From the NCBI GenBank assembly GCA_027493945.1, contig JAOSJU010000001.1, positions 3,158,484 to 3,222,483 of the forward strand: 64,000 nucleotides of DNA. The letters run 5' to 3'. The notes below the pieces were generated by a model. That model ran no database searches, was not told the DNA's origin, and saw only the letters and a program-made list of their open reading frames with translations. How positions within the stretch are numbered: the first letter of the stretch is position 1; the number at the start of each line of letters is the position of its first letter. The position numbers and the translations under genes are program-made. Below, piece after piece: positions 48,313-64,000 of this stretch. The stretch comes from Burkholderiaceae bacterium. Lineage in GTDB: Bacteria > Pseudomonadota > Gammaproteobacteria > Burkholderiales > Burkholderiaceae_E.

Positions 48313-50396
48313 GGAGTATCGCTCACCGGGCCGGTGGGCAACGTCACGACGGCGCGGATGCCACCCCCGGGCTCGCCGCGCAGTTCGATGCGGCCGCGGT
48401 GCTGGTCGATGATCCGCCCGGCGATGGGCAGCCCCAGGCCGGTGCCTCTCGCGCGACTGGTGAAGAAAGGCTCGAACACGCGTTCGTTCAACCGCTCGGG
48501 AATTCCGCAGCCGTTGTCGACGATCTCCACGCAGATCTCGGGCGACTGTCGACCCAGTTGCGCGTGGGTGCGGACGTGGACTTCGGGTGTGCGGCCAGCA
48601 ACGCCTTCGCACGCCTGCACTGCGTTCAGGATGAGGTTGGAGAACGCCTGGCGCAGCTTGTTGGCGTCGCCGTGCAGCGTCGGCAGTCCGGACGCGTGAA
48701 GAGTGTGCACCCGGGCCTTGTGCTCGTCGATCTCGCGCTGCACCAGCAGCACCGCTGTGTCCAGCACCTTGTCGATGCCGAGCCAGACCGGTTGCAACGC
48801 GTCCGGGCGCGAAAAGCTGAGCAGCTCCGAGAGTGCCTCCTCCATGTAGCGCACCTGCTCCAGCGCGAGGCGATTGATCTCCTGCTCGGCGTCGCTGAGG
48901 TTCTTGCCAGCGTGCTTGCCCAGAATGCCGAGGCTCATCTTCACCGTCGAAAGCGGGTTGCGCAAGTCGTGGGCGATCATGGTCGCAGCCTGTCCCATGG
49001 CCGCCAGCGCCCGGTTCTCCGCGCTTTCGCGGTTGCGCGCGGTGACCTCCTCCTGCAGGCGCTTGCGCTCGGTGATGTCTTCGGCCTCGGCGAGGAAATG
49101 CGTGAGGCGGTCACGATCGTCGCGGATCGGGGAGATCGCGATGTGCTCCCAATAGGTCTCGCCGTTCTTCTTCCGGTTGCATAGTTCACCGCGCCATTCG
49201 CCTCCGGCGGCGATCGTTCGCCAGAGTTCCGCATGGGTGGACGGGGGTGTGCCCCCGCTCTTTAGAAGGCGCGGATTGCGCCCGCGCACTTCGTCGAGCG
49301 CGTACCCGGTCACTTGGGTGAACTTCGGATTGACATACTCGATCGCCCCGGAATCGTCGGTGATGAGCACCATGGTGGGACTTTGTTCGACCGCGCGCGA
49401 GAGCTTGCGCAGACGCTCCTGCGTGCGCTGCCGGCCCGCGACCTCGTGCTGCAACTCACGATTGGTTGACTCGGCCTCGATCGCCCGCAAGCGCGCCACC
49501 TGCGCCAGGCGCGTCGCGACCGCGAGGAGCAAGGCCAGCGCGAGGCCGCCGGCCAGCACCGCGCGCGGCAGGGGCGTGCGCGCCGCAGACAACGTCTTCG
49601 CGAGCGGCCACACGCTCACCCGCCACTCGGCGTTGGGAAGGCGCACGGCGGCGTCCTGGTGAAACCGGGGTTCGACGTCGTCCGCGGCGTGGTCGCGAAG
49701 ATAGATGACGTCGGGCCCGTCCAGCACGCGAACGCCGTATCCGGGCGCGATGTCGCTGCCCAGGATGTCGTCGAGCAGCGCCTGCACGCCGTGGGCCGCC
49801 ACGATCATGCCGTCGAAAGCGTCGCCCCGGAAGATCGGCACACCGACCGCGAAGACCTTCTCCCCGGCGGCGCGTGAAGACACACGCGTCAGCGCGATCT
49901 GCCGCCGCGCGCGCGCGATGGGCCAGATGGACTGCATGGCTGCGGAAGACGAAGCGACGGTGTCGCCGGCTCCGGTGGCGCCGCGTTCCCACCGCACCTC
50001 GAGCACAGGATCCACCCGGGCGACGCCGAGCAGGCCGGCGTAGTGGCGCATGTACTGGTCCGCATCGGATTCCCATTCGCCGCGCGGCGGTTGTCCGCGC
50101 ATTTCCCAGCGCCCGGCCATGCGCACTTGCGCCAGCACACGCGACTCCATGCGCGCGACGATCTGGTTGCGCACGCTCTCCAGCCGCATGGTGGTGGCGC
50201 GCGCGAACTGGGTCTCTTCCTGTGCGAGCAGCGCCGCCCACAGACCGATTGCTGCGACTCCCACCGTCAGCCCGATCAGCCAGGCAAGCCAGGGCGTGGC
50301 CGGTGCGCCCCCTGACGAGGGCACTACGCTCTCCGGCGGCTCGACCGCGACCGGGTCGTGCGGTTGAGGGATCGCAGATCCGAACGCCGGCGCCAT
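48309..50396 (-). CDS. Membrane sensor histidine kinase with periplasmic sensor and PAS
   Basis: A 695-aa kinase: transmembrane helix at about 36-58, a periplasmic CHASE-like region (RLESVRNQIVARMESRVLAQ), second helix near 278-300, coiled linker, PAS domain (VLITDDSGAIEYVNPKFTQV), HisKA with phospho-His in MIAHDLRNPLS and HATPase (NLILNAVQACEG, DNGCGIP, GTGLGLP). The signal is unknown. Operon order is hemY-type gene, kinase, regulator. Confidence 0.92.
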   Translation of the reverse strand: MAPAFGSAIPQPHDPVAVEPPESVVPSSGGAPATPWLAWLIGLTVGVAAIGLWAALLAQEETQFARATTMRLESVRNQIVARMESRVLAQVRMAGRWEMRGQPPRGEWESDADQYMRHYAGLLGVARVDPVLEVRWERGATGAGDTVASSSAAMQSIWPIARARRQIALTRVSSRAAGEKVFAVGVPIFRGDAFDGMIVAAHGVQALLDDILGSDIAPGYGVRVLDGPDVIYLRDHAADDVEPRFHQDAAVRLPNAEWRVSVWPLAKTLSAARTPLPRAVLAGGLALALLLAVATRLAQVARLRAIEAESTNRELQHEVAGRQRTQERLRKLSRAVEQSPTMVLITDDSGAIEYVNPKFTQVTGYALDEVRGRNPRLLKSGGTPPSTHAELWRTIAAGGEWRGELCNRKKNGETYWEHIAISPIRDDRDRLTHFLAEAEDITERKRLQEEVTARNRESAENRALAAMGQAATMIAHDLRNPLSTVKMSLGILGKHAGKNLSDAEQEINRLALEQVRYMEEALSELLSFSRPDALQPVWLGIDKVLDTAVLLVQREIDEHKARVHTLHASGLPTLHGDANKLRQAFSNLILNAVQACEGVAGRTPEVHVRTHAQLGRQSPEICVEIVDNGCGIPERLNERVFEPFFTSRARGTGLGLPIAGRIIDQHRGRIELRGEPGGGIRAVVTLPTGPVSDTP

Positions 50397-50423: not shown

Positions 50424-51794
50424 CTAAATTGTAGCGCCCCGGGCTTCACGCTGGCCGCAGATTTCCCTGGCCACCCCATGTCCGCTGACGATGCGGTCCC
50501 GAGTCGATACGCCGTCCGGGTAGTTCGCTGCGATGTGCAGGCCGGGCCAGCGCCGCAGGCGTTCGCGAACATCGCGCACCCGATGCAGATGATTGCCGTG
50601 ATACAGCGGCAGGCCGCGGGCGTGACGCACCACGTGCGTCGTCTCCGGCGCGTCGCGCAGGCCCAGCAGCGGGGCCAGCTGTCCGAGAGCGGCCTCGGCG
50701 ATCGTCGCCTCGTCCCAGTCTGCGACCTGCGCCGCGCGTGCGCCGCCGAGATAGGCGCTGAGAAGCACTTTCCCGCCTGGCGCCCGTTCGGCCAGGACGC
50801 CGCCGCTCCACTGGCAGCCGAGAAGGGTCCGGTTTTCGGCACGCGGCACCAGAAAGCCCATGCCGTCGAGCCGGTGCTCTATCGCAGCGCGCTCGAAGCC
50901 CAGGTGCGCCACCGCCAGCGGCGCGTATTCGAGGCCGCCGATCAGCGCGGCGAGGTCGGGATCGTTCGCGTCGAGCAATCCGGCCGCCTCCACGGCGGGA
51001 ACGCTCAGCACGACATGCCGGGCACGCAGACAGCGTTCGCCCTCGTCGGTGCGCCCACGCACGCGCCAGCCATCCGGCTCGCGCGCGAGTACTGCGGCCG
51101 CGCAGTTCGTGCGCAGGCGCGCGCCGGAATTCATCGCAAGTGCGTCGACCAGGCTCTGCATGCCGCCCTTGAACGAGAACATCTCCATCGCCGGAGCGGC
51201 CTGGCGGCGCAGCTTGCGCGCGAAAACGCCAACGGCGATGCTGCCGAAGCGTTGCTCCAGCGCCGTCAGACGCGGCAGCACTGCGCGCGCCTGCGCCCGA
51301 TCGGGATCGCAGCCGAAGGTGCTCGCCAGCATCGGCTCGAAGACCTTCTCCAGTGCCTCGCGGCCCGGGCGGCGCGCGACGAAGGCGCTCGCCGTCTCGG
51401 CTTCGTCGCCGCCGCGCGGGATCAGGGGCTCGGCGAGAAGCCGCAGGCGCCCGCAATGGCTCCAGAAGGGCGTGAACGCCAGCGAGCCGAGGCGGGTGGG
51501 CACTTGCGCGAGCATTCCACGCTGCACCACGAACCGCGGCGCATCGCTGCGCAGTGCGAGCTTCCGGGACGCCAGTCCCGACTGCTCGATGAACGCCGTG
51601 ACCTCGGGGCGAAAGTTGAGCATCAGCGATGCGCCTGTCTCCATCGCGTAGCCGCCGGCCCGGCGCGTGCCGATGACACCGCCCGGCGCCGCAGCGCGTT
51701 CCCAGAGTTCCACGGTGACGCCGCGCTGCGCGAGCCACCGGGCGACGGACAGGCCGGAGATTCCTCCGCCGACGATCAGTACGTCGACGTCCAT
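50424..51794 (-). CDS. hemY: Flavin-dependent protoporphyrinogen/coproporphyrinogen oxidase family
   Basis: FAD amine-oxidase-fold protein of 456 aa with the dinucleotide motif DVLIVGGGISGLSVARWL, PGGVIGT and a C-terminal FAD-contact stretch LHIAANYPDGVSTRDRIVSG. This matches HemY-type protoporphyrinogen oxidases, which catalyse a late step of heme synthesis. It starts the operon that encodes the sensor kinase and sigma-54 regulator, and is divergent from the heme-rich respiratory operon. A different porphyrin or amine oxidase role is possible. Confidence 0.82.
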   Translation of the reverse strand: MDVDVLIVGGGISGLSVARWLAQRGVTVELWERAAAPGGVIGTRRAGGYAMETGASLMLNFRPEVTAFIEQSGLASRKLALRSDAPRFVVQRGMLAQVPTRLGSLAFTPFWSHCGRLRLLAEPLIPRGGDEAETASAFVARRPGREALEKVFEPMLASTFGCDPDRAQARAVLPRLTALEQRFGSIAVGVFARKLRRQAAPAMEMFSFKGGMQSLVDALAMNSGARLRTNCAAAVLAREPDGWRVRGRTDEGERCLRARHVVLSVPAVEAAGLLDANDPDLAALIGGLEYAPLAVAHLGFERAAIEHRLDGMGFLVPRAENRTLLGCQWSGGVLAERAPGGKVLLSAYLGGARAAQVADWDEATIAEAALGQLAPLLGLRDAPETTHVVRHARGLPLYHGNHLHRVRDVRERLRRWPGLHIAANYPDGVSTRDRIVSGHGVAREICGQREARGATI

Positions 51795-52077: not shown

Positions 52078-52093
52078 TGGTCCGGATGTTGCT
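52078..52093 (+). promoter_or_regulatory. Sigma-54 (-24/-12) promoter of the respiratory operon
   Basis: TGGTCCGGATGTTGCT fits the consensus TGGCAC-N5-TTGCW, with invariant GG (52079-52080) and GC (52091-52092) exactly 10 bp apart. Transcription should start near 52104, leaving a leader of about 28 nt before the ATG at 52132. Confidence 0.75.
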
Positions 52094-52131: not shown

Positions 52132-53913
52132 ATGGTCCGTCGCTTGTTCCCGAAGGGCCTGGACGATGTGCGGCGCGGCGTCGAAGTCATGGCGCTCGCG
52201 GCCATCGCGGCGCTTGCCTGCGGCGCTGCGCTCGCACAGGCGCCCGAGTCAGTCGAGTATCCGGCCGTCACCGGCATCGACAGCCGTCTCGCGGTGTGGA
52301 TCGCCGCGCAACTGCACCTGGAGTTCGCCGCGTTCGTGCTCGCGGTGCCGATGTTCGCGCTGCTGATCGAGTTTCTCGGCTGGCGTAGCGGGTCCACCGA
52401 CCGCGTCGCGGCGCGCCGCTACGACTGGCTGGCGCACGAGATGGCGAGCCTGCTGCCGGTCGCCTATTCGCTCACCGCCATCACCGGAGCGTTGCTCGGG
52501 TTCATGCTGTTCGCGGCATACCCGAAGGTGATGCGCCACCTCACTGGCGTCTTCGGACCGACATTCGTGGTCTATCCGCTGTTCTTCGTCGCCGAGACGC
52601 TGTGTCTTTACTTCTGGTACTACGGCTGGCACCGGTGGCAGGGCGAGTCGAAGTGGATCCACCTGCTGCTCGGCCTTCTGCTCAATGTCTTCGGCACGAT
52701 CGTCATGTTCATCGCCGACGCCCGGGCCACCTACATGATGACCCCCGCCGGCGTCGACGAACACGGCGCGCTCGTGAGCCTGCACGACGCGGTGTGGAAT
52801 CCGGGCTGGATGCCGCTGAACATCCACCGCCTGGTGGCCAACGTCACTTTCGGCGCGCTGCTCTGTTCGGCCTACGCGGCGTACCGGCTGCTGTTGAGCG
52901 GCGACGCACGCGAGCGCGCTCTCTACGACTGGATGGGCTACACCGGAAACCTCATCGCGCTCTTCACGATGCTCTTCCTGCCGTTTGCCGGCTACTACTT
53001 CGGCTTCGAGCTGTTCGCGTTCTCGGCCACCTACGGCGTGACGCTGATGGGCGGCGTGCTGTCGTGGCTGTTCATCATCCAGGCGATCGTGATCGCGGTG
53101 CTGTTCATCGGCGCAGCGTATTACTCGTGGCTCGGCCTGCTGCGCATCCCCGGATCGGAAGCCCAGCAGCGCTGGAGCGCGGTGTTCAACGTGCTGCTCA
53201 TTGCCGGTTTCGCCGTGTGGGCGACCCCGCACACGATGGCCGCGAGCATCGAGGAATCCACCGGCGGCTTTCACCCCGTGCTCGGCGCGCTCGGCGTGAT
53301 GGCGCCGAAGATGATCGCGGTGACGCTGGTGCTGGTGGTGCTGTATGCGAGCTATCTGCTGTACCGCCGCGCCGGGCGCGTGCCGGCCGTCGCGTGGGCG
53401 CGCACCGGCACGGCCGTGGAGTGGGGGCTGGTCGGCCTGATGGCGCTCACGATCGCGGCGCTCGGCATCTACGGCTACTTCGCGCCCGCGCACGTCCGCA
53501 TCAAGACCTCCATCTGGCAGATCTACGTGCTGATCGGCGGCATCGTCGTGACTTTCCTTCTCGACCACGCAATGCTGCGCGGCGCCACGACCGTCGCCGC
53601 CGCGCGCTGGGGAACGATGCCGCGCCGCGGCCAGTACGTGCTCGTGCTGCTCGCCGTCGTGATCGTGTGGCTGATGGGCCTGATGGGCTACGCGCGCAGC
53701 GGCGCGCGCCTGAACTGGCACGTGTTCGGCATCCTCGAAGACACCTCGTCCGGGGCCGGACTCCCTGCCCTCGGCGAGGCGGCGCTCGTCGTCACGCTGA
53801 TCACGGCGATCTTCTTCGCGCTGCTCGCGGTGGCGTTCCTGATCGCCGGGATGGCGCACCGCACCGACGAGCGCACCCTCGCCGAGATCGCTCCGTACGG
53901 AGAGCCGCAGTGA
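52132..53913 (+). CDS. Cytochrome bd-like oxidase subunit I (CydA-like), no CydB
   Basis: A 593-aa polytopic protein with about 13-14 hydrophobic helices. Segments such as LHLEFAAFVLAVPMFALLIE, WMPLNIHRLVANVTFGALLC and FAGYYFGFELFAFSATYG recall subunit I of cytochrome bd oxidases, but it is longer than CydA, lacks the GRQPW quinol-loop signature and no CydB gene follows. Similar bd-like proteins accompany Nxr in Nitrospira. It could be a terminal oxidase fed by cytochrome c, or a quinone-linked electron carrier. First gene after the sigma-54 promoter. Confidence 0.75.
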   Translation: MVRRLFPKGLDDVRRGVEVMALAAIAALACGAALAQAPESVEYPAVTGIDSRLAVWIAAQLHLEFAAFVLAVPMFALLIEFLGWRSGSTDRVAARRYDWLAHEMASLLPVAYSLTAITGALLGFMLFAAYPKVMRHLTGVFGPTFVVYPLFFVAETLCLYFWYYGWHRWQGESKWIHLLLGLLLNVFGTIVMFIADARATYMMTPAGVDEHGALVSLHDAVWNPGWMPLNIHRLVANVTFGALLCSAYAAYRLLLSGDARERALYDWMGYTGNLIALFTMLFLPFAGYYFGFELFAFSATYGVTLMGGVLSWLFIIQAIVIAVLFIGAAYYSWLGLLRIPGSEAQQRWSAVFNVLLIAGFAVWATPHTMAASIEESTGGFHPVLGALGVMAPKMIAVTLVLVVLYASYLLYRRAGRVPAVAWARTGTAVEWGLVGLMALTIAALGIYGYFAPAHVRIKTSIWQIYVLIGGIVVTFLLDHAMLRGATTVAAARWGTMPRRGQYVLVLLAVVIVWLMGLMGYARSGARLNWHVFGILEDTSSGAGLPALGEAALVVTLITAIFFALLAVAFLIAGMAHRTDERTLAEIAPYGEPQ

Positions 53914-54728
53914 AGAGCCTCGCCGCCCACGGCGCGCCGGTGCTGCCGGCCGTGATCGTCGTCGGCTTCTTCGTCTGGTTCGCCAACTGGATTCCCCAGA
54001 CGCGCTGGCAGCCGCCCCAGAAGCTCGCGATCACCGAGAGCATGACGCCGGCCGAACTCGCCGCGCAGGGCGAAACGCTGGTTCGCCAGCGCGGCTGCAT
54101 GACCTGTCACACGATCGAACCCGGAGCAGGCGTCAAGGGCGGGGGCCGCGGACCGAACCTCGCCGAAGTCGCCCTGCGTCGCGCGAGCGGAGTGCAGGGC
54201 GGGCCCGGGACTCTCGTCGAGTATCTGGTGCAGTCGCTCTACGAACCGGGCGCCTACGTGGTCGACGGCTTCAGCAACATCATGCCGGCGTCCACTTCGG
54301 CGCCCGCCAAGCTGGGCTACGAAGAGGTCGTCGCGGTCGTCGACTACCTGCAGTCGCTGGGCGGCAGGCCGTCGGTGAAGATCGGCGACATTCCGCGCCC
54401 GTCCGGCGCGCCCGCCGCGCCTGCCCCGGCGGCAGCCACGGCCTCCGATCCCCGGGCGCTGTTCGAGTCGCTCGCGTGCGCCGGCTGCCACAGCCTGGAG
54501 CCCGGCAAGAAAGTGCTCGGCCCGAGTCTCGACGCGGAGGCCCTGAGGCAGGCCGCGGCGGCGCGCAGCATGAGCGTCGAGGCGTTCCTGGTCGAGTCCA
54601 TCGTCGACCCGAAGGCCTACGAGGCGAAGGACTATCCGTCGGGCGCCATGCCGCAGGACTACGGCACGAGACTGAATGCCGCGCAACTGAAGTCGCTCGT
54701 CGATTACCCGGCCGGGAGGAAATCGTGA
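53910..54728 (+). CDS. Membrane-anchored diheme cytochrome c
   Basis: A 272-aa protein with an uncleaved N-terminal helix (APVLPAVIVVGFFVWFANWIP) and two c-type heme sites, CMTCH and CAGCH, each followed by a distal Met candidate (NIMPAS and GAMPQDYG). A Pro/Ala linker joins the two domains. GTG start at 53910 overlaps the previous stop as GTGA. It should carry electrons on the periplasmic face between the molybdoenzyme and the bd-like oxidase. Confidence 0.9.
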   Translation: MKSLAAHGAPVLPAVIVVGFFVWFANWIPQTRWQPPQKLAITESMTPAELAAQGETLVRQRGCMTCHTIEPGAGVKGGGRGPNLAEVALRRASGVQGGPGTLVEYLVQSLYEPGAYVVDGFSNIMPASTSAPAKLGYEEVVAVVDYLQSLGGRPSVKIGDIPRPSGAPAAPAPAAATASDPRALFESLACAGCHSLEPGKKVLGPSLDAEALRQAAAARSMSVEAFLVESIVDPKAYEAKDYPSGAMPQDYGTRLNAAQLKSLVDYPAGRKS

Positions 54729-55501
54729 ACCGTCTCGGTGAGTCGTGGCGCCGCAACGTGCCGCTGCCGACCGGCGTCGCGCTGGTGGTGGCGGCGGTCT
54801 ACGTCCTGCTCGAGCTGGTGCGGCCGGTCATCCCGGGCAGCGTGATCCTGCTCTACATGGGGTTCGCCATCGCGGGCGCGGTGATCCACGTCACGCTGGA
54901 CGATCAGCGCATCGGCCGCTTCATGAAGTTCTTTCTCGAAACGCCGGCGGACGAGCCGCGCGCGTTGCGCACCCAGCGCTGGGTGCTGCTGGCCGTCCTT
55001 CCGCTCGTGCTCGGATGGCTGGTCTACGACGCGCTGCGCCCGACCTACGCGCCGCCGGTGGAGATCTTCCAGCGTCACCCGACGGTCGGCGAGGAGGTGC
55101 TCAAGCGCGTCGTGGTGCCGGCCTGGGCGGCCGATCCGGCGAAGTGGCGCTCCGAGGACGTCGCGGCGGGCAAGCGCCTGTACGACGCGAACTGCGCGGT
55201 CTGCCACGGCGAGAAACTCGACGGTCAGGGAGTCGCGGCCGAAGGGTTCCGCTATCCCATCCGGCCGGCGAATTTCACCGACGCGGGCACGATCGGGCAG
55301 TTGACCTTGCCGTACGTCTACTGGCGCCTCACGATCGGCGGCATCCAGAACCAGTTCAACAGCGCGATGCCCAAGTGGGCCGCGGGCGACGCGGAGCCCG
55401 GCGCCTCGACGTTGCACCTGAACGACTTCACGTCGGAGGAGGCCTGGAAGGTGATCCTGTACATCTACCGCGCGAGCGGCTTCGAGCCGCGCAGGGAGTA
55501 G
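54725..55501 (+). CDS. Membrane-anchored monoheme cytochrome c
   Basis: A 258-aa protein with two hydrophobic N-terminal segments (LPTGVALVVAAVYVLLELV, VILLYMGFAIAGAVIHV), a third near residue 85 (WVLLAVLPLVLGWLVYDAL) and one heme site CAVCHG in the C-terminal domain, with AMPKWA as distal Met. GTG start overlaps the diheme cytochrome stop. Its three helices suggest a membrane subunit as well as an electron carrier. Confidence 0.88.
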   Translation: MNRLGESWRRNVPLPTGVALVVAAVYVLLELVRPVIPGSVILLYMGFAIAGAVIHVTLDDQRIGRFMKFFLETPADEPRALRTQRWVLLAVLPLVLGWLVYDALRPTYAPPVEIFQRHPTVGEEVLKRVVVPAWAADPAKWRSEDVAAGKRLYDANCAVCHGEKLDGQGVAAEGFRYPIRPANFTDAGTIGQLTLPYVYWRLTIGGIQNQFNSAMPKWAAGDAEPGASTLHLNDFTSEEAWKVILYIYRASGFEPRRE

Positions 55502-55505
55502 CGCG

Positions 55506-58500
55506 ATGGGCAAGGTCACGCGCCGGCAATTCCTGGTGCGCGCCGCGGGCGCGGGCGGCCTCCTCGCCGGGGCGGGCGCCGCCGCACCGGCGTTTGCGGG
55601 CCGCACGCTGGTCGCGGCTCCGGGAGTCGACAATCCGCTCGAGCACTATCCGGAGCGCGACTGGGAGGAGGTGTACCGCAACCAGTACGCCTACGAGCGC
55701 AGCTTCACCTACATCTGCGCGCCCAACGACACGCACATGTGCCGCGTGCGCGCGTTCGTGCGCAACGGGATCGTGACGCGCCTCGAGCAGAACTACGACC
55801 ATCACCGCTACAAGGATCTCTACGGCAACCAGGCGACGGCGGCGTGGAACCCGCGCATGTGCCTGAAGGGCTTCACGATGCACCGGCGCCTCTACGGGCC
55901 GTACCGCGCGAAGGGGCCGATGCTCCGCAGCGGCTGGAAGCAGTGGGCCGACGCGGGCTTTCCGTCGCTGTCGGACGATCCGAAACTGCGCAGCCAGTAC
56001 CGCTTCGACGCACGCGGCACCGACTCCTTCGAGCGGGTCTCGTGGGACGAAGCGACGACCTACGTCGCCAAGGCGCTCATCGCGATCGCGCGCACCTACA
56101 GCGGCGAGGACGGCAGGCGCCGGCTGGTGAAGAACGACGGCTACCCTCAGGAGATGCTCGAGCACTGGGACGAGGCGGGCACGCGCACCATGAAGCTCGG
56201 CAGTTCGCTGCCGCCGCACGGCGTCATCGGCAAGTTCGGCACCTTCCGCATGGCCAACATGCTCGGGTTGCTCGACGCGCACGTGCGCAAGGTCGGGCCG
56301 GACAAGGCAAAGGGCGGGCGCGAGTGGTCCGAATACACCTGGCGCGGCGACCAGGCGCCCGGGCAGCCGTTCGTGCACGGGCTGCAGACCTCCGACATCG
56401 ACCTGAACGACCTGCGCTTCACGAAGTTCACCGTGCAGGTGGGCAAGAACCTGATCGAGAACAAGATGCCCGAGGCGCACTGGCTCACCGAGATCATCGA
56501 GCGCGGCGGGCGCATCGCGGTGATCGCGCCGGAGTACAACCCGTCGGCGAGCAAGGCCGACTACTGGATCTCGGTGCGCCCGGGGCTCTCGGACACCTCG
56601 ATCTTCCTCTTCGTCACCCGCTACCTGATGGATAAGGGCTGGTACGACGAGGCCTACGTCAGGCAGTTCACCGATTTCCCGCTGCTGGTGCGCACCGATA
56701 CGCTCGAGCGCCTGAAGCCGCAGGAGATCATCGCCGGATACCGCAACCGGGATCTGTCCAGGGGACCGGGGGTCACCATCCACGGGCTCACCGCCGAGCA
56801 GCGCGATCGCATCGGCGACTTCGTCGTCTGGGACCGCAAATCCGGTGGCGCGAGGCCGATCAGCCGCGACGACGTCGGCAAGCACGTCGGCGCGCAGGGC
56901 ATCGAACCGCGGCTCGACTGGAAGGGCACGGTGCGCCTGGTCGACGGCAGGCAGGTCGAGGCGATGACGGTCTGGGAGATGTACCGGGAGCATCTGCGCG
57001 ACTACGACATCGACACGGTGCACGAGATCTGCGGCGCGTCGAAGGAACTGCTCGAGCGTCTGGCGAAGGACTTCGGCCGCCGCTTCTGGGATCCGGACTA
57101 CAAGGGCAAGCCGCGCGAGGCCTACCCGATCGCGATCCACTACGGCGAGGGCATCAACCACTACTTCCACGCCACGCTGCACAACCGCGCGGTGTGCCTG
57201 CCGCTGATGCTCGTGGGCAGCATCGGCATCCCGGGTTCGGGCGCGCACACCTGGGCGGGCAACTACAAGGGGGCGCTCTTCCAGGGTTCGCTGTGGTCGG
57301 GCCCGGGCGTGGGCGGCGCGTACGTCGAGGAGGACCCGTTCAAGCCGGTGCTCGACCCGAAGGCGAAGATCGGCCGGGAGAACGTGCGCGAGTTGCTGCA
57401 CGGCGAGGAGATGAGCTATTGGGGGTTCGGCGAGCGGCCGCTCATCGTCGACACGCCGGCGGGGCGCAGGAATTTCACCGGCAGGACCCACATGCCGAGC
57501 CCGACGAAGCTCATGTGGTACAACAACGCGAACCTGATGAACCAGGCGAAGTGGATCTACCACCTCCTGGTGAACGTCAACCCGAAGATCGACTGCATCA
57601 TCGATCAGCAGGTCGAGTGGACCGGCTCGGCCGAGTACGCCGACGTCGTCCTGCCGGCCAACACCTGGCTCGAATTCCAGACGCGCGAGTGCGGCGTCTC
57701 GTGCTCGAACCCGTTCCTGCAGATCTGGGGCGGCGACGGGATCAAGCCCCTGTACGACTCCAGGGACGACGGCATGATCTTCGCCCTCGTCGCCGAGAAG
57801 CTCGCCGCGCTCACCGGCGACCGGCGCTTCAGCGACCACTGGAAGTTCATGCTGGAAGGCAAGCCCGAGGTGTACATCCAGCGCGTGCTCGATGCCAGTT
57901 GCACCACGCAGGGCTACCGGGTCGACGACATCCTGGCCGGCAAGTACGGCGAGCCGGGTGCCGCGCTGATGCTGTTCCGCTCGTACCCGCGGGTGGCGTT
58001 CTACGAGCAGGTCCACGACAGCGTGCCTTTCTACACCGACACGGGGCGGTTGAACGCCTACACCGACATTCCCGAGGCGATCGAGTACGGGGAAAACCTC
58101 GTGGTGCACCGCGAGGCTCCGGAGGCAACGCCCTACCTGCCGGGCGTCATCGTCTCGACGAGCCGCTTCGTGCGGCCGAACAACTTCGGCGTGACGCCGC
58201 AGATGCTGCAGGCGAAGACCCTGGATGCCGACCTGCGCGCGGTGGCGAACAACAAGCTCGCCTGGAAGGAAGTGAAGAAGACGAAGAACCCGCTGTGGGA
58301 GGAGGGCTACCGCTTCTTCTGCATGACACCGAAGAGCAGGCACACGACCCACTCGTCGTGGGCGACGGTGGACTGGAACTGGATCTGGAGCACCAACTTC
58401 GGCGACCCGTACCGCATGGAGCCGCGCAGCCCCGGCGTCGGCGACTGGCAGGTGCACATGAATCCCCAGGCGGCGAAGGACCTCGGCATCGAGGACGGCG

Positions 58501-59042
58501 ACTACATCTACGTCGACGCCAACCCCGTTGACCGGCCGTACGCCGGCTGGAAGGACTCCGACCCGCGCTACAAGGCGTTTCGCCTGCTCACGCGGGTGAA
58601 GTACAACCCGGCCTACCCGTACAACGTCGTCATGACCAAGCACAGCGCCCGGATCGCGAGCGAGCGTACGGTCAAGGCGCACGAGACGCGGCCCGACAGG
58701 CGGGCGCTCGCGTCCGACACCGGTTACCAGTCGAACTTCCGCTACGGCTCGCACCAGAGCGTGACGCGCGGCTGGGCGCCGCCGATGCACCAGACCGACA
58801 GCCTGTTTCACAAGAAGACCGGGACGATGGGGTTCGTGTTCGGTTTCGACGTCGACAACCACGCGGTGAACACGGTGCCCAAGGAGACGCTGGTGCGCAT
58901 CCAGAAGGCCGAACCCGGGGGGCTCGACGGCAAGGGCGTCTGGGAGCCGGCCGCGAGCGGGCACTCGCCAGCGCACGAGAGTGCGTTCACCGCCCGCTAT
59001 CTCGCGGGCGGTGCGATCAAGGTGAAAGGAACGGGCGAATGA
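55506..59042 (+). CDS. NXR-like catalytic subunit, type II DMSO-reductase family molybdoenzyme
   Basis: An 1178-aa molybdopterin enzyme. A Tat signal (RRQFLVRAAGAGGLLAG) implies a periplasmic site. The FS0 cluster region reads C71-x3-D75-x3-C79-x39-C119, with Asp where NarG has Cys. GKNLIENKMPEAHWLTEIIE and VIAPEYNPSASKADYWI fit the NxrA/NarG group, and length matches NxrA (about 1150) better than chlorate, perchlorate or ethylbenzene enzymes (about 900-980). D257 is a candidate Mo ligand, by inference. Substrate may be nitrite or another oxyanion. Confidence 0.85.
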   Translation: MGKVTRRQFLVRAAGAGGLLAGAGAAAPAFAGRTLVAAPGVDNPLEHYPERDWEEVYRNQYAYERSFTYICAPNDTHMCRVRAFVRNGIVTRLEQNYDHHRYKDLYGNQATAAWNPRMCLKGFTMHRRLYGPYRAKGPMLRSGWKQWADAGFPSLSDDPKLRSQYRFDARGTDSFERVSWDEATTYVAKALIAIARTYSGEDGRRRLVKNDGYPQEMLEHWDEAGTRTMKLGSSLPPHGVIGKFGTFRMANMLGLLDAHVRKVGPDKAKGGREWSEYTWRGDQAPGQPFVHGLQTSDIDLNDLRFTKFTVQVGKNLIENKMPEAHWLTEIIERGGRIAVIAPEYNPSASKADYWISVRPGLSDTSIFLFVTRYLMDKGWYDEAYVRQFTDFPLLVRTDTLERLKPQEIIAGYRNRDLSRGPGVTIHGLTAEQRDRIGDFVVWDRKSGGARPISRDDVGKHVGAQGIEPRLDWKGTVRLVDGRQVEAMTVWEMYREHLRDYDIDTVHEICGASKELLERLAKDFGRRFWDPDYKGKPREAYPIAIHYGEGINHYFHATLHNRAVCLPLMLVGSIGIPGSGAHTWAGNYKGALFQGSLWSGPGVGGAYVEEDPFKPVLDPKAKIGRENVRELLHGEEMSYWGFGERPLIVDTPAGRRNFTGRTHMPSPTKLMWYNNANLMNQAKWIYHLLVNVNPKIDCIIDQQVEWTGSAEYADVVLPANTWLEFQTRECGVSCSNPFLQIWGGDGIKPLYDSRDDGMIFALVAEKLAALTGDRRFSDHWKFMLEGKPEVYIQRVLDASCTTQGYRVDDILAGKYGEPGAALMLFRSYPRVAFYEQVHDSVPFYTDTGRLNAYTDIPEAIEYGENLVVHREAPEATPYLPGVIVSTSRFVRPNNFGVTPQMLQAKTLDADLRAVANNKLAWKEVKKTKNPLWEEGYRFFCMTPKSRHTTHSSWATVDWNWIWSTNFGDPYRMEPRSPGVGDWQVHMNPQAAKDLGIEDGDYIYVDANPVDRPYAGWKDSDPRYKAFRLLTRVKYNPAYPYNVVMTKHSARIASERTVKAHETRPDRRALASDTGYQSNFRYGSHQSVTRGWAPPMHQTDSLFHKKTGTMGFVFGFDVDNHAVNTVPKETLVRIQKAEPGGLDGKGVWEPAASGHSPAHESAFTARYLAGGAIKVKGTGE

Positions 59043-59293
59043 AACCCGCAGAGCGCGGCGATCCGATGGAACTCGTCGGCGTGGCCTTGCCGGCCGACCC
59101 GGCGGAAATGGCGCGCTGCCTGATCGAGGAGTACCTGCTGCTCGGCTGGGACGATCGGCGCATCGCGCTGCTGTTCGAGCGCCCGTGCTATCGCGCAACG
59201 CACGGGCTCGCGAGCGCGCTGGGCGGGGAGAGGATTCGCGCGCTGATCGGCGAGGTTCGCGCGCAATGGACGGGAGCGGGCCGCGATGCCTGA
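59039..59293 (+). CDS. Small unknown protein between alpha and beta subunit genes
   Basis: An 84-aa acidic protein (MKPAERGDPMELVGVALPAD, LIEEYLLLGWDDRRIALLFE, RATHGLASALGGERIRALIG). Its start overlaps the alpha stop as ATGA and its end overlaps the beta start by 8 bp, so it is translationally locked between them. No signal peptide, cysteine motif or known domain is visible. It may be an assembly factor that acts in the cytoplasm; that is inference from position only. Confidence 0.75.
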   Translation: MKPAERGDPMELVGVALPADPAEMARCLIEEYLLLGWDDRRIALLFERPCYRATHGLASALGGERIRALIGEVRAQWTGAGRDA

Positions 59294-60560
59294 GGTCTAC
59301 AACTGGCAGCTGGGTCGGCCGATGGAGTACCCGTATCGCGAGGCGCACCCGCGCGAGCAGTTCGCGTTCGTTTTCAACATCAACCGCTGCATCGCCTGCC
59401 AGACCTGCACCATGGCCTGCAAGTCCACCTGGACTTTCTCCAAGGGCCAGGAGTACATGTGGTGGAACAACGTCGAGACCAAGCCTTACGGCGGTTATCC
59501 CCAGTTCTGGGATACGAGGCTGCTCGAGCTGCTCGACGGCGCCCACCAGAAGGCGGGGCGCGAGGCGGTCTGGGACGCCTCGAAGAAGGAGCCGAAGACG
59601 CGCCCGTACGGTGTCTTCGACGGCATGACGGTGTTCGAGGCCGCGCGCGCGGCCGACCGGCGCGACGCGGTCGCCCTCGGCTACGAGCCGACCGATCTGG
59701 AGTGGCGGTTTCCGAACATCTACGAGGACACCGCCACCGGGTCGAAGGACCGGCGCGACTCGCTGAACCTCGAGCCGGCCGCGCTGCCCGAGCACGCGAC
59801 CTGGTTCTTCTACCTGCAGCGGCTGTGCAACCACTGCACCTATCCCGCGTGCCTCGCCGCCTGCCCGCGCCGGGCGATCTACAAGCGTGGCGAGGACGGG
59901 ATCGTGCTGATCGACCAGAAGCGCTGCCGTGGCTACCGCAAGTGCGTCGCCGCATGCCCTTACAAGAAGCCGATGTTCCGCGCCACCACGCGGGTCTCGG
60001 AGAAGTGCATCGCCTGCTACCCGCGCATCGAGGGCAAGGATGCGCTCACGCAGGGCGAGCCGATGGAGACGCGCTGCATGGCAGCCTGCGTGGGCAAGAT
60101 CCGCATGCAGGGGCTGGTGGGCATCGGCGCCGACGGTGCCTGGGCCGAGCAGCGCGACAACCCGCTCTACTTCCTCGTCAAGGTGGAGAAGGTCGCGCTG
60201 CCGCTGTATCCGCAGTTCGGCACCGAGCCGAACGGCTACTACATTCCGCCGCGCTGGGTGCCGCGGGCATACCTGCGGCAGATGTTCGGCCCGGGCGTCG
60301 ACGAGGCGATCGAGCGCTACACGCGGCCCTCGCGCGAACTGCTCGCGGTGCTGCAGCTCTTTCGCGCGAGCCAGACCGTGATCTTCCGCTACGAGATCGT
60401 GCAGGGGCCGAAGGTGTTCGAGACCACCGTGGATGGCCGCAAGTGGGAGATGTACAACGACACCGTGATCGGCTACGGGCGCAGCGGCAAGGAGGTCGCT
60501 CGCGTGACGGTCGAGGAGCCCAGGTTCGTGCGCGCCGACAAGCACTACAACTCGATATGA
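59286..60560 (+). CDS. NxrB-like iron-sulfur beta subunit
   Basis: A 424-aa four-cluster ferredoxin-type subunit. The first cluster motif CIACQTCTMAC is at residues 35-45. Later CNHCTYPACLAAC, CRGYRKCVAAC and CIAC/CMAAC complete the ligands. Tyr in CRGYRKC occupies the NarH Trp position, predicting one [3Fe-4S] cluster. The start MPEVYNWQLGRPMEYPY and MWWNNVETKPYGGYPQFWD are hallmark NxrB-like phrases. No signal peptide: it would be co-exported with the Tat-tagged alpha subunit. Confidence 0.9.
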   Translation: MPEVYNWQLGRPMEYPYREAHPREQFAFVFNINRCIACQTCTMACKSTWTFSKGQEYMWWNNVETKPYGGYPQFWDTRLLELLDGAHQKAGREAVWDASKKEPKTRPYGVFDGMTVFEAARAADRRDAVALGYEPTDLEWRFPNIYEDTATGSKDRRDSLNLEPAALPEHATWFFYLQRLCNHCTYPACLAACPRRAIYKRGEDGIVLIDQKRCRGYRKCVAACPYKKPMFRATTRVSEKCIACYPRIEGKDALTQGEPMETRCMAACVGKIRMQGLVGIGADGAWAEQRDNPLYFLVKVEKVALPLYPQFGTEPNGYYIPPRWVPRAYLRQMFGPGVDEAIERYTRPSRELLAVLQLFRASQTVIFRYEIVQGPKVFETTVDGRKWEMYNDTVIGYGRSGKEVARVTVEEPRFVRADKHYNSI

Positions 60561-61297
60561 CGACCGCCAGCGCCCTCTGCAGGAGCCGCGTCTACGGCAC
60601 GCTGTCGCTGGCGTTCGCCGAGCCCGGTCGGGAGGCGCTGCGCAACCTGCGCGAACGCGTCGCGGCGCTCGAGCCCTGCCTCGGCGAAATCGGCGACGAA
60701 GCGAACCTCGCGCGGGCGCGCGCGCTGCGCGCGAGCCTGGCGCGGCTCTCGCTGCAGCGATGGCGCGCCGAGCACGTGCGGTGCTTCGGCTACGCGATCT
60801 CGAAAGAGTGCCCGCCCTACGAGGCCGAGTACGACCAGGCGAACCTGTTCCAGAAGACGCACACGCTCGCCGACGTCGCGGGCTTCTACCGCGCCTTCGG
60901 CGTGCAGACGGCGCCCGAACTGCACGAGCGCGTCGACCACGTCGGCGTCGAACTGGAGTTCATGGAATTCCTCTGCCTGAAGCAGGCGCACGCGGCCCGA
61001 CGCGAGCGCATCGGGCAATGCCGGGCCGCGCAGGCCAGGTTCGTCGAAGAGCACCTCGGAGCCTGGTCGCGCGGCTTCGCGCGCAGGCTGCGCGCGGTGG
61101 CGGGCAGGGGTTTCTTTGCGATCCTCGCCGAGCTGCTCGGGAACTACGTCGACGCCGAAGCACAGCGGCTCGGCGTGCGACTCGCGGAGGGCGGACGGCT
61201 CAACGAGGCGCCCGAGCTGGCCGACGACGGGTGTGCGGCGAGTTGCGCCGCGCCGCCCGGCGCGTACCGATGCGAGGTGATGCATGAGCGCACGTGA
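60557..61297 (+). CDS. TorD/NarJ-family molybdoenzyme chaperone
   Basis: A 246-aa cytoplasmic helical protein with the family signature ECPPYEAEYDQANLFQKTHT and FYRAFGV. Such chaperones hold the apo catalytic subunit until cofactor insertion and Tat export. The C terminus ends in a Cys-containing tail. The ATG overlaps the beta stop as ATGA; the next gene overlaps its end by 14 bp. Confidence 0.92.
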   Translation: MTTASALCRSRVYGTLSLAFAEPGREALRNLRERVAALEPCLGEIGDEANLARARALRASLARLSLQRWRAEHVRCFGYAISKECPPYEAEYDQANLFQKTHTLADVAGFYRAFGVQTAPELHERVDHVGVELEFMEFLCLKQAHAARRERIGQCRAAQARFVEEHLGAWSRGFARRLRAVAGRGFFAILAELLGNYVDAEAQRLGVRLAEGGRLNEAPELADDGCAASCAAPPGAYRCEVMHERT

Positions 61298-62306
61298 AGC
61301 GATTCGCGGGCGCCGCCCGTGGCTGGCGGCGCCGTTCGCCGTGCTCGGCGGCTGGCTCGCGTTGCCGGCGCGCGGCGCGCGCGCCGCGGCGAAGGCGAGC
61401 CTGCTCGCACGCCCGGTGGACGCGATTCCCGACGATCCGGACGCGCCGGCGTGGCAGGAGTCCGATGCGCTCGAGGTGCCGCTCGCGCCGCAGGCCGTGG
61501 TCAAGCCGCGTCGCTACGAACCCGGGGTGAAGGCGATCGAGGTGCGCGCGCTCTACAGCGAAGAGCGCCTCGCGGTGCGCCTGGCGTGGCGCGACGCCGA
61601 GCAAGACGTGATGAAGGGCGCCGCGCAGGCCTTTCGCGACGCGATCGCGCTGGAGTTTCCGTACGATCCGGCGAAGGGCATCCCCTTCTTCGGCATGGGC
61701 GAGCGCGAGCGCCCGGTGGTGATCTACCAGTGGAAGTCCGACTGGTCGGCGGGCAGCCCGCCCGACGTCGACGAGAAGTACCCCGACATGGTGGTCGACT
61801 GGTATCCGTTCTCCACCCGCTCCGCGAGCGAGATCGCGGAGGCGTCCGACTACGGCAAGTCCGGCGGCGACCGGGCGTTCATTTCGAGCTGGTGGGCAGG
61901 CAATGCGCTGATGGACCCGGCGCTGCAATCGAAGCGCGCGGTCGAGAAACTGGTCGCGCACGGATTCGGCACGCTCGAGCCGGTGCCGGCGGACCAGCAG
62001 GACGGCGAGTCGCACGCGCAGTGGAAGGACGGCGTGTGGAGAGCCGTGATCTCGATCCCGCGCGCCCAGGAGGCGTTCAGCTTCGCGCGCGGCAAGACGG
62101 TTCCGTTCGCCTTTGCCGCGTGGAACGGCGCGAGGCAGGAGCGCGGCGCCGAGAAGGCCGTCTCCACCTGGTACTTCCTCAGCCTGGAGCAGCCGACCAG
62201 CACCGTGACCTGGCTCGCGCCAGTAGCCGTCGTCGCCGGAGTGTTCGCCGCGCAGATGGCGGGGCTGCGCAGGCTGCGCGAGCGCGCCGCGGGGCGGAGC
62301 CACTGA
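61284..62306 (+). CDS. Heme-b gamma-like subunit (EB_dh type) with C-terminal anchor
   Basis: A 340-aa exported protein: Sec-type signal (RRPWLAAPFAVLGGWLALPA), an ethylbenzene-dehydrogenase gamma-like heme domain (residues about 40-295, with EVRALYSEERLAVRLAWRDA and GKTVPFAFAAWNGARQERG) and a C-terminal helix (WLAPVAVVAGVFAAQMAGL). EbdC-like relatives are soluble; the anchor suggests that this complex is held on the membrane, as proposed for NxrC proteins. Confidence 0.85.
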   Translation: MSAREAIRGRRPWLAAPFAVLGGWLALPARGARAAAKASLLARPVDAIPDDPDAPAWQESDALEVPLAPQAVVKPRRYEPGVKAIEVRALYSEERLAVRLAWRDAEQDVMKGAAQAFRDAIALEFPYDPAKGIPFFGMGERERPVVIYQWKSDWSAGSPPDVDEKYPDMVVDWYPFSTRSASEIAEASDYGKSGGDRAFISSWWAGNALMDPALQSKRAVEKLVAHGFGTLEPVPADQQDGESHAQWKDGVWRAVISIPRAQEAFSFARGKTVPFAFAAWNGARQERGAEKAVSTWYFLSLEQPTSTVTWLAPVAVVAGVFAAQMAGLRRLRERAAGRSH

Positions 62307-62309
62307 CCC

Positions 62310-63722
62310 GTGTACGGTTCGATCTACCTGCCGCTGGACAATTCGCCACTGTCGCTGGCCGGGCTCGACCTCGCGATCGAGCTCGCCGGCGCGACCGGCG
62401 CGCTTCTCACCGGCAGCCACGTCTATGCGGCGAGGCTGCACGACCGGCGCTTCCGCCAGATGGAGGGAGGCCTGCCGGAGGCGTACCGCAAGGAGGACAA
62501 GCTCGTCGAGCAACGCGTGATCCACGACGACCTCATCACGCGCGGGCTCAGGGTCATCTCGGATTCCTACCTCGACGTGTTCTCGGAGCGCTGCACGCGC
62601 GCCGGGATCGAGCACCGGCGCGTCGCGCTCGAGGGCAGGAACTGGCAGAAACTGGTCGAGGACATCGGCGCGTCGGGCGCGGACCTCGTGGTGATGGGCG
62701 CACTCGGGCTGGGCGCGGTCGAATCGAGCGAGATCGGCAGCGTCTGCGAGCGCGTCGCGCGCCGCATCGATCGCGATCTGCTGGTCATGCGCACCGGCGA
62801 AGGCGACGGCAAGGGCGCGATCGCCGTGGCGCTCGACGGCAGTCCGCAGTCGTTCGGCGGCCTGATGACGGCGATCGAACTGGGCAAGCGCCTCGGCCGG
62901 CCGGTCGAGGCGGTCGCGGCATTCGACCCGCAGTTCCACTACGTTGCCTTCAACTCCATCGCGAAGGTCCTGTCTGCCGAGGCGGCGAGCGTGTTCCGCT
63001 TCAGGGAGCAGGAGCGGCTGCACGAGGAGATCATCGATTCGGGGCTGGCGAAGATCTACCAGGGCCACCTCGACGTCGCCGCCGGTCTGGCGCGCGAGGC
63101 GGGAACCGCGTTCACCACGCGGCTGCTGGCCGGCAAGGCCTTCGAGCAGTTGCTGCGCCACGCTGCCGAGACCCGACCCCGGCTGCTGGTGCTCGGTCGC
63201 GTCGGCGTGCACTCGGATGCGGCGATGGATCTGGGCAGCGTGACCGAGAACCTGCTGCGGCGTCTGCCGTGCAATCTGCTCATCTCCGCGCGAAGCTTCG
63301 AGCCGCCGGTGGAGAAAATCGCCGACGCGACCATCGCGTGGACCGAAGAAGCGGAGCAGCGCATGAGCCGCGTGCCGGAATTCGCGCGCGGCATGGCACG
63401 CAGCGCCATCCTGCGCCACGCGGCGCAGGATGGCCACACCGTAGTCACTTCGGATGTGATCGACGCAGTCATGGGCGCGATGCCCGGTGGTCGCTGCCCG
63501 TTCTCCGGAAAGACCGCGGCGCGGGAAGCGCCGGGTGGCGCAGAGGACATCCCGATCACGTGGGAACTGGCTGCGCTCGAGCGCCTGCTGAGCTTGCCGG
63601 AGGCCGTGCGCGAACACGCCAGGCTGCGAATCGAGAAGCTTGCGCGGCGCATGCAGCGTGCCAGCGTCGACGCCGAGGTCATCGAGGCCGCCTCGCACGC
63701 GGTGCACGAAATGCTCCGATAG
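62310..63722 (+). CDS. Tandem universal-stress protein with two PCP_red-like repeats
   Basis: A 470-aa protein: two Usp domains (start VYGSIYLPLDNSPLSLAGL, then GAIAVALDGSPQSFGG), followed by two related helical repeats starting at W344 (WTEEAEQRMSRVPEFARGMA) and W418 (WELAALERLLSLPEAVREHA). These match the PCP_red domain found at the end of light-independent protochlorophyllide reductase subunits. No chlorophyll genes are present. Role in the operon is unknown, perhaps cofactor maturation or sensing. GTG start at 62310. Confidence 0.8.
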   Translation: MYGSIYLPLDNSPLSLAGLDLAIELAGATGALLTGSHVYAARLHDRRFRQMEGGLPEAYRKEDKLVEQRVIHDDLITRGLRVISDSYLDVFSERCTRAGIEHRRVALEGRNWQKLVEDIGASGADLVVMGALGLGAVESSEIGSVCERVARRIDRDLLVMRTGEGDGKGAIAVALDGSPQSFGGLMTAIELGKRLGRPVEAVAAFDPQFHYVAFNSIAKVLSAEAASVFRFREQERLHEEIIDSGLAKIYQGHLDVAAGLAREAGTAFTTRLLAGKAFEQLLRHAAETRPRLLVLGRVGVHSDAAMDLGSVTENLLRRLPCNLLISARSFEPPVEKIADATIAWTEEAEQRMSRVPEFARGMARSAILRHAAQDGHTVVTSDVIDAVMGAMPGGRCPFSGKTAAREAPGGAEDIPITWELAALERLLSLPEAVREHARLRIEKLARRMQRASVDAEVIEAASHAVHEMLR

Positions 63723-63725
63723 CCG

Positions 63726-64000
63726 ATGTCGGCGCCACAACTCGTTTCCTGGAACCTCACGCGGCGCTGCAACCTCGCCTGCGGGCACTGTTATCTGGAC
63801 GCGGTGCAAAGGAAGAGCGAGGCGCCCGGAGAGCTCTCGACCGAGGCCGCGCTGCGCGTCATCGACGAGATCGCAGGGGCGGCTCCCGGCGCGATGCTCG
63901 TGCTGACCGGCGGAGAACCGCTGCTGCGAGCCGATCTCGTCGGCTCTGGTGACGCGGGCCGCAGCCGTCGGGCTGATGCCGGTGATCGGCACCAACGGCG
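63726..64000 (+). CDS. Radical SAM enzyme, 5' part (runs off window, frameshifted)
   Basis: Starts MSAPQLVSWNLTRRC with the radical SAM cluster C15-x3-C19-x2-C22 (CNLACGHC) and GGEPLLRADL. The frame breaks near 63941; removing one G restores ALVTRAAAVGLMPVIGTNG up to the window end. The start resembles the NirJ/AhbD/PqqE-like heme or peptide-modifying group, but the defining C-terminal part is outside the window. It lies 3 bp after the Usp gene, so it belongs to the operon. Confidence 0.85.
   Translation, partial: MSAPQLVSWNLTRRCNLACGHCYLDAVQRKSEAPGELSTEAALRVIDEIAGAAPGAMLVLTGGEPLLRADLVGSGDAGRSRRADAGDRHQR

Follow-up and report, generated by a model that had tools for sequence, protein, structure and literature searches.

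The closest described relatives of the system considered here are the nitrite/nitrate oxidoreductases (NXRs) of anammox bacteria and nitrite oxidisers. In the solved NXR-ABC complex of Kuenenia stuttgartiensis (7b04), the alpha subunit has Asp275 as the molybdenum ligand, Asn70 as the substrate residue and Cys67/Asp71/Cys75/Cys115 as the FS0 ligands (PMC8387239). Nitrospira has a bd-like protein, two membrane cytochromes c and an alternative NxrC in a cluster of their own, which is highly transcribed and reportedly conserved in Nitrospina and anammox bacteria, and for which reverse electron flow to quinone has been suggested (PMC6606698). NXR genes of this lineage have already been published from outside the known nitrifiers, in Planctomycetota (PMC10732223). 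Here we describe a ten-gene operon in a 64,000-nucleotide stretch of a Burkholderiaceae metagenome-assembled genome (MAG; assembly GCA_027493945.1, contig JAOSJU010000001.1, positions 3,158,484 to 3,222,483), hereafter the window. The operon very probably encodes a member of the periplasmic NXR family of nitrite/nitrate oxidoreductases, accompanied by a CydA-like protein and two cytochromes c, and its host may be an unrecognised nitrite oxidiser.

How does this locus compare with the described systems? With the Kuenenia complex it shares full-length homology of alpha and beta, homology of gamma, the molybdenum aspartate, the substrate asparagine, the three-Cys/one-Asp FS0 set and the Met/Lys ligands of haem b. 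The alpha subunits are 60% identical over the length of Kuenenia NxrA; the window gamma differs in having a C-terminal hydrophobic helix, and the operon differs from the anammox loci examined in gene order and in including the CydA-like and cytochrome c genes. The Nitrospira set is alike in its NXR, membrane-anchored gamma candidate, two membrane cytochromes c, bd-like_3 protein, TorD and sigma-54 regulators, a likeness by published description and not by direct sequence comparison. The Nitrospira parts lie in separate loci, whereas those of the window lie in one operon, and Nitrospira alt_NxrC_2 has two haem c motifs where the window gamma has none (PMC6606698). The putative NXRs of non-anammox Planctomycetota belong to the same lineage and likewise have a small open reading frame (ORF) after nxrA (PMC10732223). 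Their loci differ in mostly running gamma-alpha-small ORF-beta-TorD, with no CydA-like gene in the stretches examined; the MAGs OFTM341, OFTM22 and OFTM39 of that paper (our loci L093, L089 and L076) lie within the group that the alpha tree described below places as sister to the proteobacterial clade. The NXR of Candidatus Nitrotoga is also betaproteobacterial, and it is Tat-exported and periplasmic, as is predicted for the window enzyme, but it belongs to a published sister lineage with ~40% identity to Kuenenia, and its NxrC, as described in PMC6050957, has no transmembrane helix, where one is predicted for the window gamma. NarGHI shows only distant homology, in alpha (92-98 bits) and beta; the ten genes include no NarI, and the host's own narG (2194 bits) is a separate gene. 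Searches of the open-licence literature aimed at NXR phylogeny or at this proteobacterial NXR turned up, among the titles and abstract openings listed, no report of a proteobacterial NXR operon with a built-in CydA-like/cytochrome c module.

The assignment to the NXR family comes from all three predicted subunits. The gene for the catalytic Mo-bisMGD alpha subunit, nxrA (55506 to 59042, on the plus strand like the rest of the operon; 1178 aa), matched Kuenenia NxrA (7b04_B) over its full length with 1607 bits in a search of the Protein Data Bank (PDB); the other solved comparison enzymes scored 148 bits (PcrA), 117 bits (EbdA) and 92-98 bits (NarG), ClrA and SerA not being in the set. The iron-sulphur beta subunit, encoded by nxrB (59286 to 60560), scored 643 bits to Kuenenia NxrB (7b04_A), with the next matches at 216, 195 and 181 bits. 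For the haem b gamma subunit, encoded by an nxrC-like gene (61284 to 62306), the closest solved relative is NxrC (7b04_C; 76 bits, 3e-20), followed by EbdC. The Kuenenia ligand residues have equivalents in the window alpha: D282 for Asp275, N74 for Asn70 and C71/D75/C79/C119 for the FS0 ligands. These residues are kept in every row of the proteobacterial clade that covers them (18-20 of 21 rows, the remainder being gaps). They are also kept in nine sister-clade rows of the alignment, and thus mark the wider NXR group and not the window's lineage alone. The Met/Lys haem b ligands of gamma, M138 and K291, are present in 21 of 21 rows at the level of sequence, and hydropathy predicts a single C-terminal hydrophobic helix that would anchor gamma in the membrane. 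Read by eye, residues 5-10 at the alpha N-terminus spell a Tat-type motif, TRRQFL, with a hydrophobic stretch after it. The first-pass annotation of this DNA had favoured the NXR lineage over NarGHI, and the Kuenenia NxrA and NxrB scores and both trees agree. It had named loss of the molybdenum aspartate as a ground for doubt; D282 occupies that position. It had likewise named a position of alpha within the chlorate, selenate, hydrocarbon or membrane Nar clades; the scores exclude one inside Pcr, Ebd or Nar.

Three known enzymes were considered as candidates and rejected. For NarGHI, alpha reached 125 bits against the narG equivalog model (cut-off 1084) and 92-98 bits against NarG structures, with no narI-like gene among the ten. 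A (per)chlorate reductase is recognised by a PcrA-like alpha plus a chlorite dismutase gene in the genome; the PcrA score was 148 bits, and no chlorite dismutase (PF06778, E <= 1e-10) was found in 28 genomes, 22 of them from the clade. For ethylbenzene dehydrogenase, the EbdA equivalog gave 121 bits against a cut-off of 2000.

Phylogeny places the enzyme with those of anammox bacteria and Nitrospina. Relatives were collected in one scan of named genome contigs, which found 335, and the best 80 were kept. The alpha tree, built with a quick method and rooted at the midpoint, has 90 rows: the window, the Kuenenia PDB row, 79 of the 80 loci and nine of ten chosen outgroup loci, L118 and L032 having been dropped as too short or broken. 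In this tree the window belongs to a proteobacterial clade of 21 rows whose SH-aLRT support is full. Together with enzymes of Planctomycetota, Acidobacteria and NC10, this clade sits within a larger lineage to which anammox bacteria and Nitrospina also belong; a caveat is that the branches separating Nitrospina from the outgroup are long. The beta tree, made with more care, has 85 rows (the window, 70 of the 80 loci, 10 sister-clade loci and four NarH-labelled outgroup rows). It unites 21 proteobacterial rows on a single branch in 99% of bootstraps and does not resolve the deeper branching among phyla. The alpha and beta phylogeny that the first-pass annotation had proposed as a check therefore nests the window with the anammox and Nitrospina enzymes in both trees, which hold no PcrA, ClrA, SerA or EbdA rows. 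No Nitrospira-labelled row was among the best 80, and hence there is none in either tree. A sister clade at ~40% identity stands apart from the window, with nine rows in the alpha tree and 10 in the beta tree; published identities suggest that it is the Nitrotoga type, although it includes no named Nitrotoga row. Two loci of the same order, L037 and L038 (genomes G048 and G132), have an NXR/Nar-like alpha at 38-40% identity and lie in this presumed Nitrotoga-type clade.

Counting L053 and L118 with the 20 named alpha-clade rows, the window's clade has 22 loci, and its MAGs include ones titled Beta-, Gamma- and Alphaproteobacteria. Some members are irregular. The betaproteobacterial L053 has clade-like beta and CydA-like genes and an alpha outside the clade, possibly by recombination or as an assembly chimera; L056 is in the alpha clade without beta; and L118, titled Deltaproteobacteria, has the start of the operon and is in neither tree. 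L062, though titled Proteobacteria, is not a member: both trees place it with Kiritimatiellia and Planctomycetota. Among the best 80 of the 335 relatives, the nearest is Burkholderiales bacterium PRO2 (L050), with an alpha 97% identical. The beta gene was not found at E <= 1e-40 in two genomes from the window's genus or in three from its family, yet it occurs at 91% in a genome from a different family. This pattern suggests horizontal transfer, by which the operon was probably acquired. In a plasmid search for alpha, nothing closer appeared than distant homologues, at 31-35% identity, on three haloarchaeal plasmids (NC_019976, NZ_CP090372 and NZ_CP082288).

The operon is a single tightly packed unit of ten plus-strand genes from 52132 to ~65001, with six junctions overlapping by 4-14 bases and three with gaps of 3-4 bases. 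The tightly overlapping ten-gene arrangement is present as first described, as is the betaproteobacterial background (order Burkholderiales), with two corrections: the operon extends beyond the window to ~65001 (position 1485 of L002, the next stretch of the contig), and the frame of its radical SAM gene is broken near 63945 in this assembly. The order CydA-like, cytochrome c, cytochrome c, alpha, small ORF, beta, TorD, gamma is intact in 22 of 22 clade loci, as far as each reaches, which is far beyond chance expectation.

The first three genes set the operon apart from other NXR loci. The first encodes a CydA-like membrane protein of 593 aa (52132 to 53913) with ~10 membrane helices by hydropathy. 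It is followed by a dihaem cytochrome c (53910 to 54728; PF00034/PF13442, CxxCH at 63 and 190, N-terminal hydrophobic helix) and a monohaem cytochrome c (54725 to 55501; PF00034, CxxCH at 157, two hydrophobic helices), both probably membrane-anchored. The CxxCH counts of two and one, with the PF00034 matches, bear out the two cytochromes c that had been proposed. All three genes precede nxrA in each of the 19 clade loci with upstream DNA. A CydA-like match at E <= 1e-3 was found in none of the 58 other loci in the available stretches, 46 of which include at least 4 kb upstream of alpha; the CydA-like profile likewise had no match near NXR in the anammox or Nitrospina loci examined. The homologues are 73-95% identical to the window copy, and a profile of the 19 matches CydA (5doq) at 2e-10, in the N-terminal part only. 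The L050 copy, 95% identical to that of the window, matches PF01654 at 7e-16. The ten operon genes include no narI-like or cydB-like gene, as the first-pass annotation had said, the search for cydB being confined to the operon. That annotation also spoke of a bd-like oxidase: the CydA-like identity holds, and nothing points to oxygen reduction. The CydA match is partial, and the protein may act on quinone.

What kind of cell carries this operon? The host genome is 4.28 Mb in four contigs, with an estimated completeness of 88.8%, and the operon lies within a 3.73 Mb contig. Separate from the operon, the genome has a Nar-type narG (2194 bits), a nirS-type gene (502 bits; PF02239 also covers NirF and NirN), two NOR-like genes by similarity to solved NORs, nosZ and RuBisCO. 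A CcoN-type oxidase gene is above cut-off and a CtaD-type gene slightly below (659 of 671 bits, from a partial query). There is no napA above cut-off, no NrfA-family match and no chlorite dismutase. Across the 22 clade genomes (the window genome, G055 and 20 others, the L118 genome being outside the count), narG is above cut-off in 14, napA in five and either in 16. Seventeen genomes have a nirS-type match of 487 bits or more, and eight have nosZ, all eight with nirS as well; the nosZ search covered the TIGR04244 type. Many of these genomes are draft MAGs of unknown completeness, which makes absences weak. The nirS-type genes of G055 (148-160 kb on contig C9) precede its NXR operon by ~22-34 kb; nirS of the window genome (G000:C1:3264039) follows the operon by ~40 kb. 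By their titles some clade members come from groundwater, and others presumably come from anammox reactors.

There is evidence in support of both directions of the reaction, and we put the probability that nitrite oxidation is the main or a major direction at roughly 60%. In that case, nitrite would be oxidised at the molybdenum in the periplasm, and electrons would pass along the Fe-S chain to the haem b of gamma and on to the two cytochromes c, then to the aa3/cbb3 oxidases or, at low oxygen, to NirS. The CydA-like protein would divert part of the electrons to quinone for CO2 fixation, at a cost in proton gradient. With a Nar-type narG in place, the host would have no need of a second plain nitrate reductase; most hosts have a separate Nar or Nap, and the window genome has RuBisCO and oxidases. 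Elsewhere, the bd-like/cytochrome c accessory set has been reported from nitrite oxidisers and anammox bacteria (PMC6606698). Several points weigh against nitrite oxidation. Reaction direction is not encoded in sequence. The Kuenenia NXR runs both ways (PMC8387239), and the wider clade is said to include nitrate reducers, Thermogutta and Methanoperedens (PMC10732223). With nirS, two NOR-like genes and nosZ, the window genome is a denitrifier's, and most hosts have denitrification genes. RuBisCO, found in 10 of the 22 clade genomes, was not found in 12, and chlorite dismutase is absent from all 28 genomes searched. Against the proposed role of the CydA-like protein, the window copy itself has no Pfam match, and its AlphaFold model is weak (mean pLDDT 54.7). 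The NXR can probably work in both directions, and in other conditions it could act on nitrate as a reductase.

Indeed, the same enzyme might run backwards in the cell, as a periplasmic nitrate reductase: the CydA-like protein would oxidise quinol and pass electrons through the cytochromes c and gamma to alpha, with NirS consuming the nitrite. NXR reversibility, the denitrification genes of the host and most relatives (nirS-type in 17 of 22, TIGR04244 nosZ in eight), the origins in groundwater and anammox reactors and the six of 22 clade genomes with neither narG nor napA above cut-off all fit this idea. It is the less likely direction, given that 16 of 22, the window genome included, already have one of those two reductases, and that the accessory set is otherwise reported from the other physiology. 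A further, rather doubtful, possibility is that the NXR and the NirS-NOR-NosZ chain together support life by nitrite disproportionation, 5 NO2- + 2 H+ -> N2 + 3 NO3- + H2O. Electrons from the NXR would then pass through the operon's cytochromes c straight to NirS in the periplasm, and the CydA-like protein would feed quinone for CO2 fixation. The window genome has the genes (NXR, nirS-type, two NOR-like, nosZ and RuBisCO), and NXR, nirS-type and nosZ occur together in eight of 22; PMC8114937 describes the reaction as thermodynamically favourable and as not detected in nature. That alpha acts on a substrate other than nitrite or nitrate is very unlikely. The enzyme family is the same, gamma is of the EbdC type, and the best NCBIfam matches are the type II DMSO reductase models TIGR03479 and TIGR03478, though both are below their cut-offs; on the other side, bit scores to PcrA and EbdA are about ten times lower than to NxrA, chlorite dismutase is missing from the 28 genomes searched, and the substrate asparagine N74 (Kuenenia N70) is kept where EbdA has Ile (PMC8387239). 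Least probable of all, to the point of being negligible, is that binning or assembly brought in an operon from another organism. The beta gene and the divergent flavoprotein gene beside the operon are both absent from the same two genus and three family genomes, and the MAG is 88.8% complete. Nevertheless, the operon sits inside the 3.73 Mb contig, its GC content of 0.687 equals that of the rest of the window (0.687), and PRO2 (L050) has the operon with flavoprotein, kinase and regulator in the same place at 88-92% DNA identity.

The remaining genes of the operon and its surroundings include likely accessory functions. Between nxrA and nxrB, a small conserved protein of 84 aa (59039 to 59293) has a tblastn match after nxrA in 56 of the 80 loci, across several phyla. 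It was not found in 20 anammox-group and Nitrospina loci, and a rebuilt profile matched none of the 24 BLAST-missed loci at E <= 0.01. Pro9 and Gly62 never vary in 51 aligned rows, and Asp8, Met24, Glu30/31, Gly36 and Pro49 hardly do. The four-helix AlphaFold2 model (pLDDT 91) resembles no PDB fold at E <= 0.001, its best match being at 2.1, and the window copy has no Pfam match. This is likely an unrecognised NXR accessory protein. After nxrB comes a TorD/NarJ-type chaperone gene (60557 to 61297; PF02613 5e-25, TIGR03482 1e-26), and after gamma a gene with double universal-stress (Usp) and PCP_red domains (62310 to 63722; PF00582, PF08369). The Usp gene is on the same strand in 10 of the 22 clade loci, upstream on the opposite strand in eight and not found in four.

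The last gene encodes a radical SAM/SPASM protein with a C-terminal PCP_red domain (63726 to 64000 in the window and on to ~65001, with L002:433-1485 beyond the window). It is AhbD/NirJ2-like according to Pfam matches of both halves and to NCBIfam matches, below cut-off, of two intact relatives. The PRO2 copy (L050) stops early at a different place than the window break, and longer open copies occur in L039-L042, L046 and L047; the broken frames reflect either decay or sequencing error. An IS110-family transposase (L002:3131-4240) lies ~1.6 kb past the operon end. Divergent from the operon is the gene for a protoporphyrinogen-oxidase-like flavoprotein (50424 to 51794, minus strand; TIGR00562 192 bits, cut-off 98). 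Homologues, the family name having been checked on the window and L046 copies, are found upstream or downstream of the operon in 18 of 22 clade loci, among them L046 (19460-20752) and, in similar places, L047, L048, L049, L051, L052, L055 and L063. The gene was not found at E <= 1e-30 in the five genus and family genomes without beta. This gene and the AhbD/NirJ2-like gene both accompany the operon, in both arrangements, and may be a haem-modification pair that serves it.

The operon is probably packaged with its own switch, to judge from its flanking sequence. A box like the sigma-54 (-24/-12) consensus, TGG-N8-TTGC, lies at 52078 to 52092 on the plus strand, ~40 bases 5' of the first gene. 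On the minus strand are genes for a PAS histidine kinase (48309 to 50396; Pfam) and an NtrC-type sigma-54 response regulator (46894 to 48309; PF00158 4e-65, PF00072), which could form the corresponding two-component system. In the window and in 10 of 18 loci, the box keeps a conserved distance of 214-230 bases upstream of a fixed codon. Five aligned rows supplied the pattern, and six of the other 14 proved to have it too; the chance of at least one box per 600 bases is ~0.06. The kinase is found in nine of the 22 clade loci and the regulator in eight. Nine of the 10 loci with the box have the window-type kinase upstream and eight the regulator, one stretch ending inside the kinase. None of the eight loci without the box has the kinase, L118 among them having almost no upstream DNA. 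Some Nitrospira nxrAB copies are likewise described as adjoining sigma-54-dependent regulators.

What would this operon mean for the biology of nitrite oxidation? The known betaproteobacterial nitrite oxidiser, Nitrotoga, uses a different NXR; here the anammox/Nitrospina type occurs in proteobacterial MAGs, mostly with denitrification genes. Nitrite oxidation may therefore be spread more widely than surveys count. In Nitrospira, the separate bd-like cluster has so far been only a suggestion for how electrons move from NXR to the membrane; with the CydA-like protein and the cytochromes c inside the nxr operon, electron transfer from a periplasmic NXR to the membrane would be testable as one cassette. 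Similarly, the combination of NXR, nirS and nosZ makes nitrite disproportionation directly testable.

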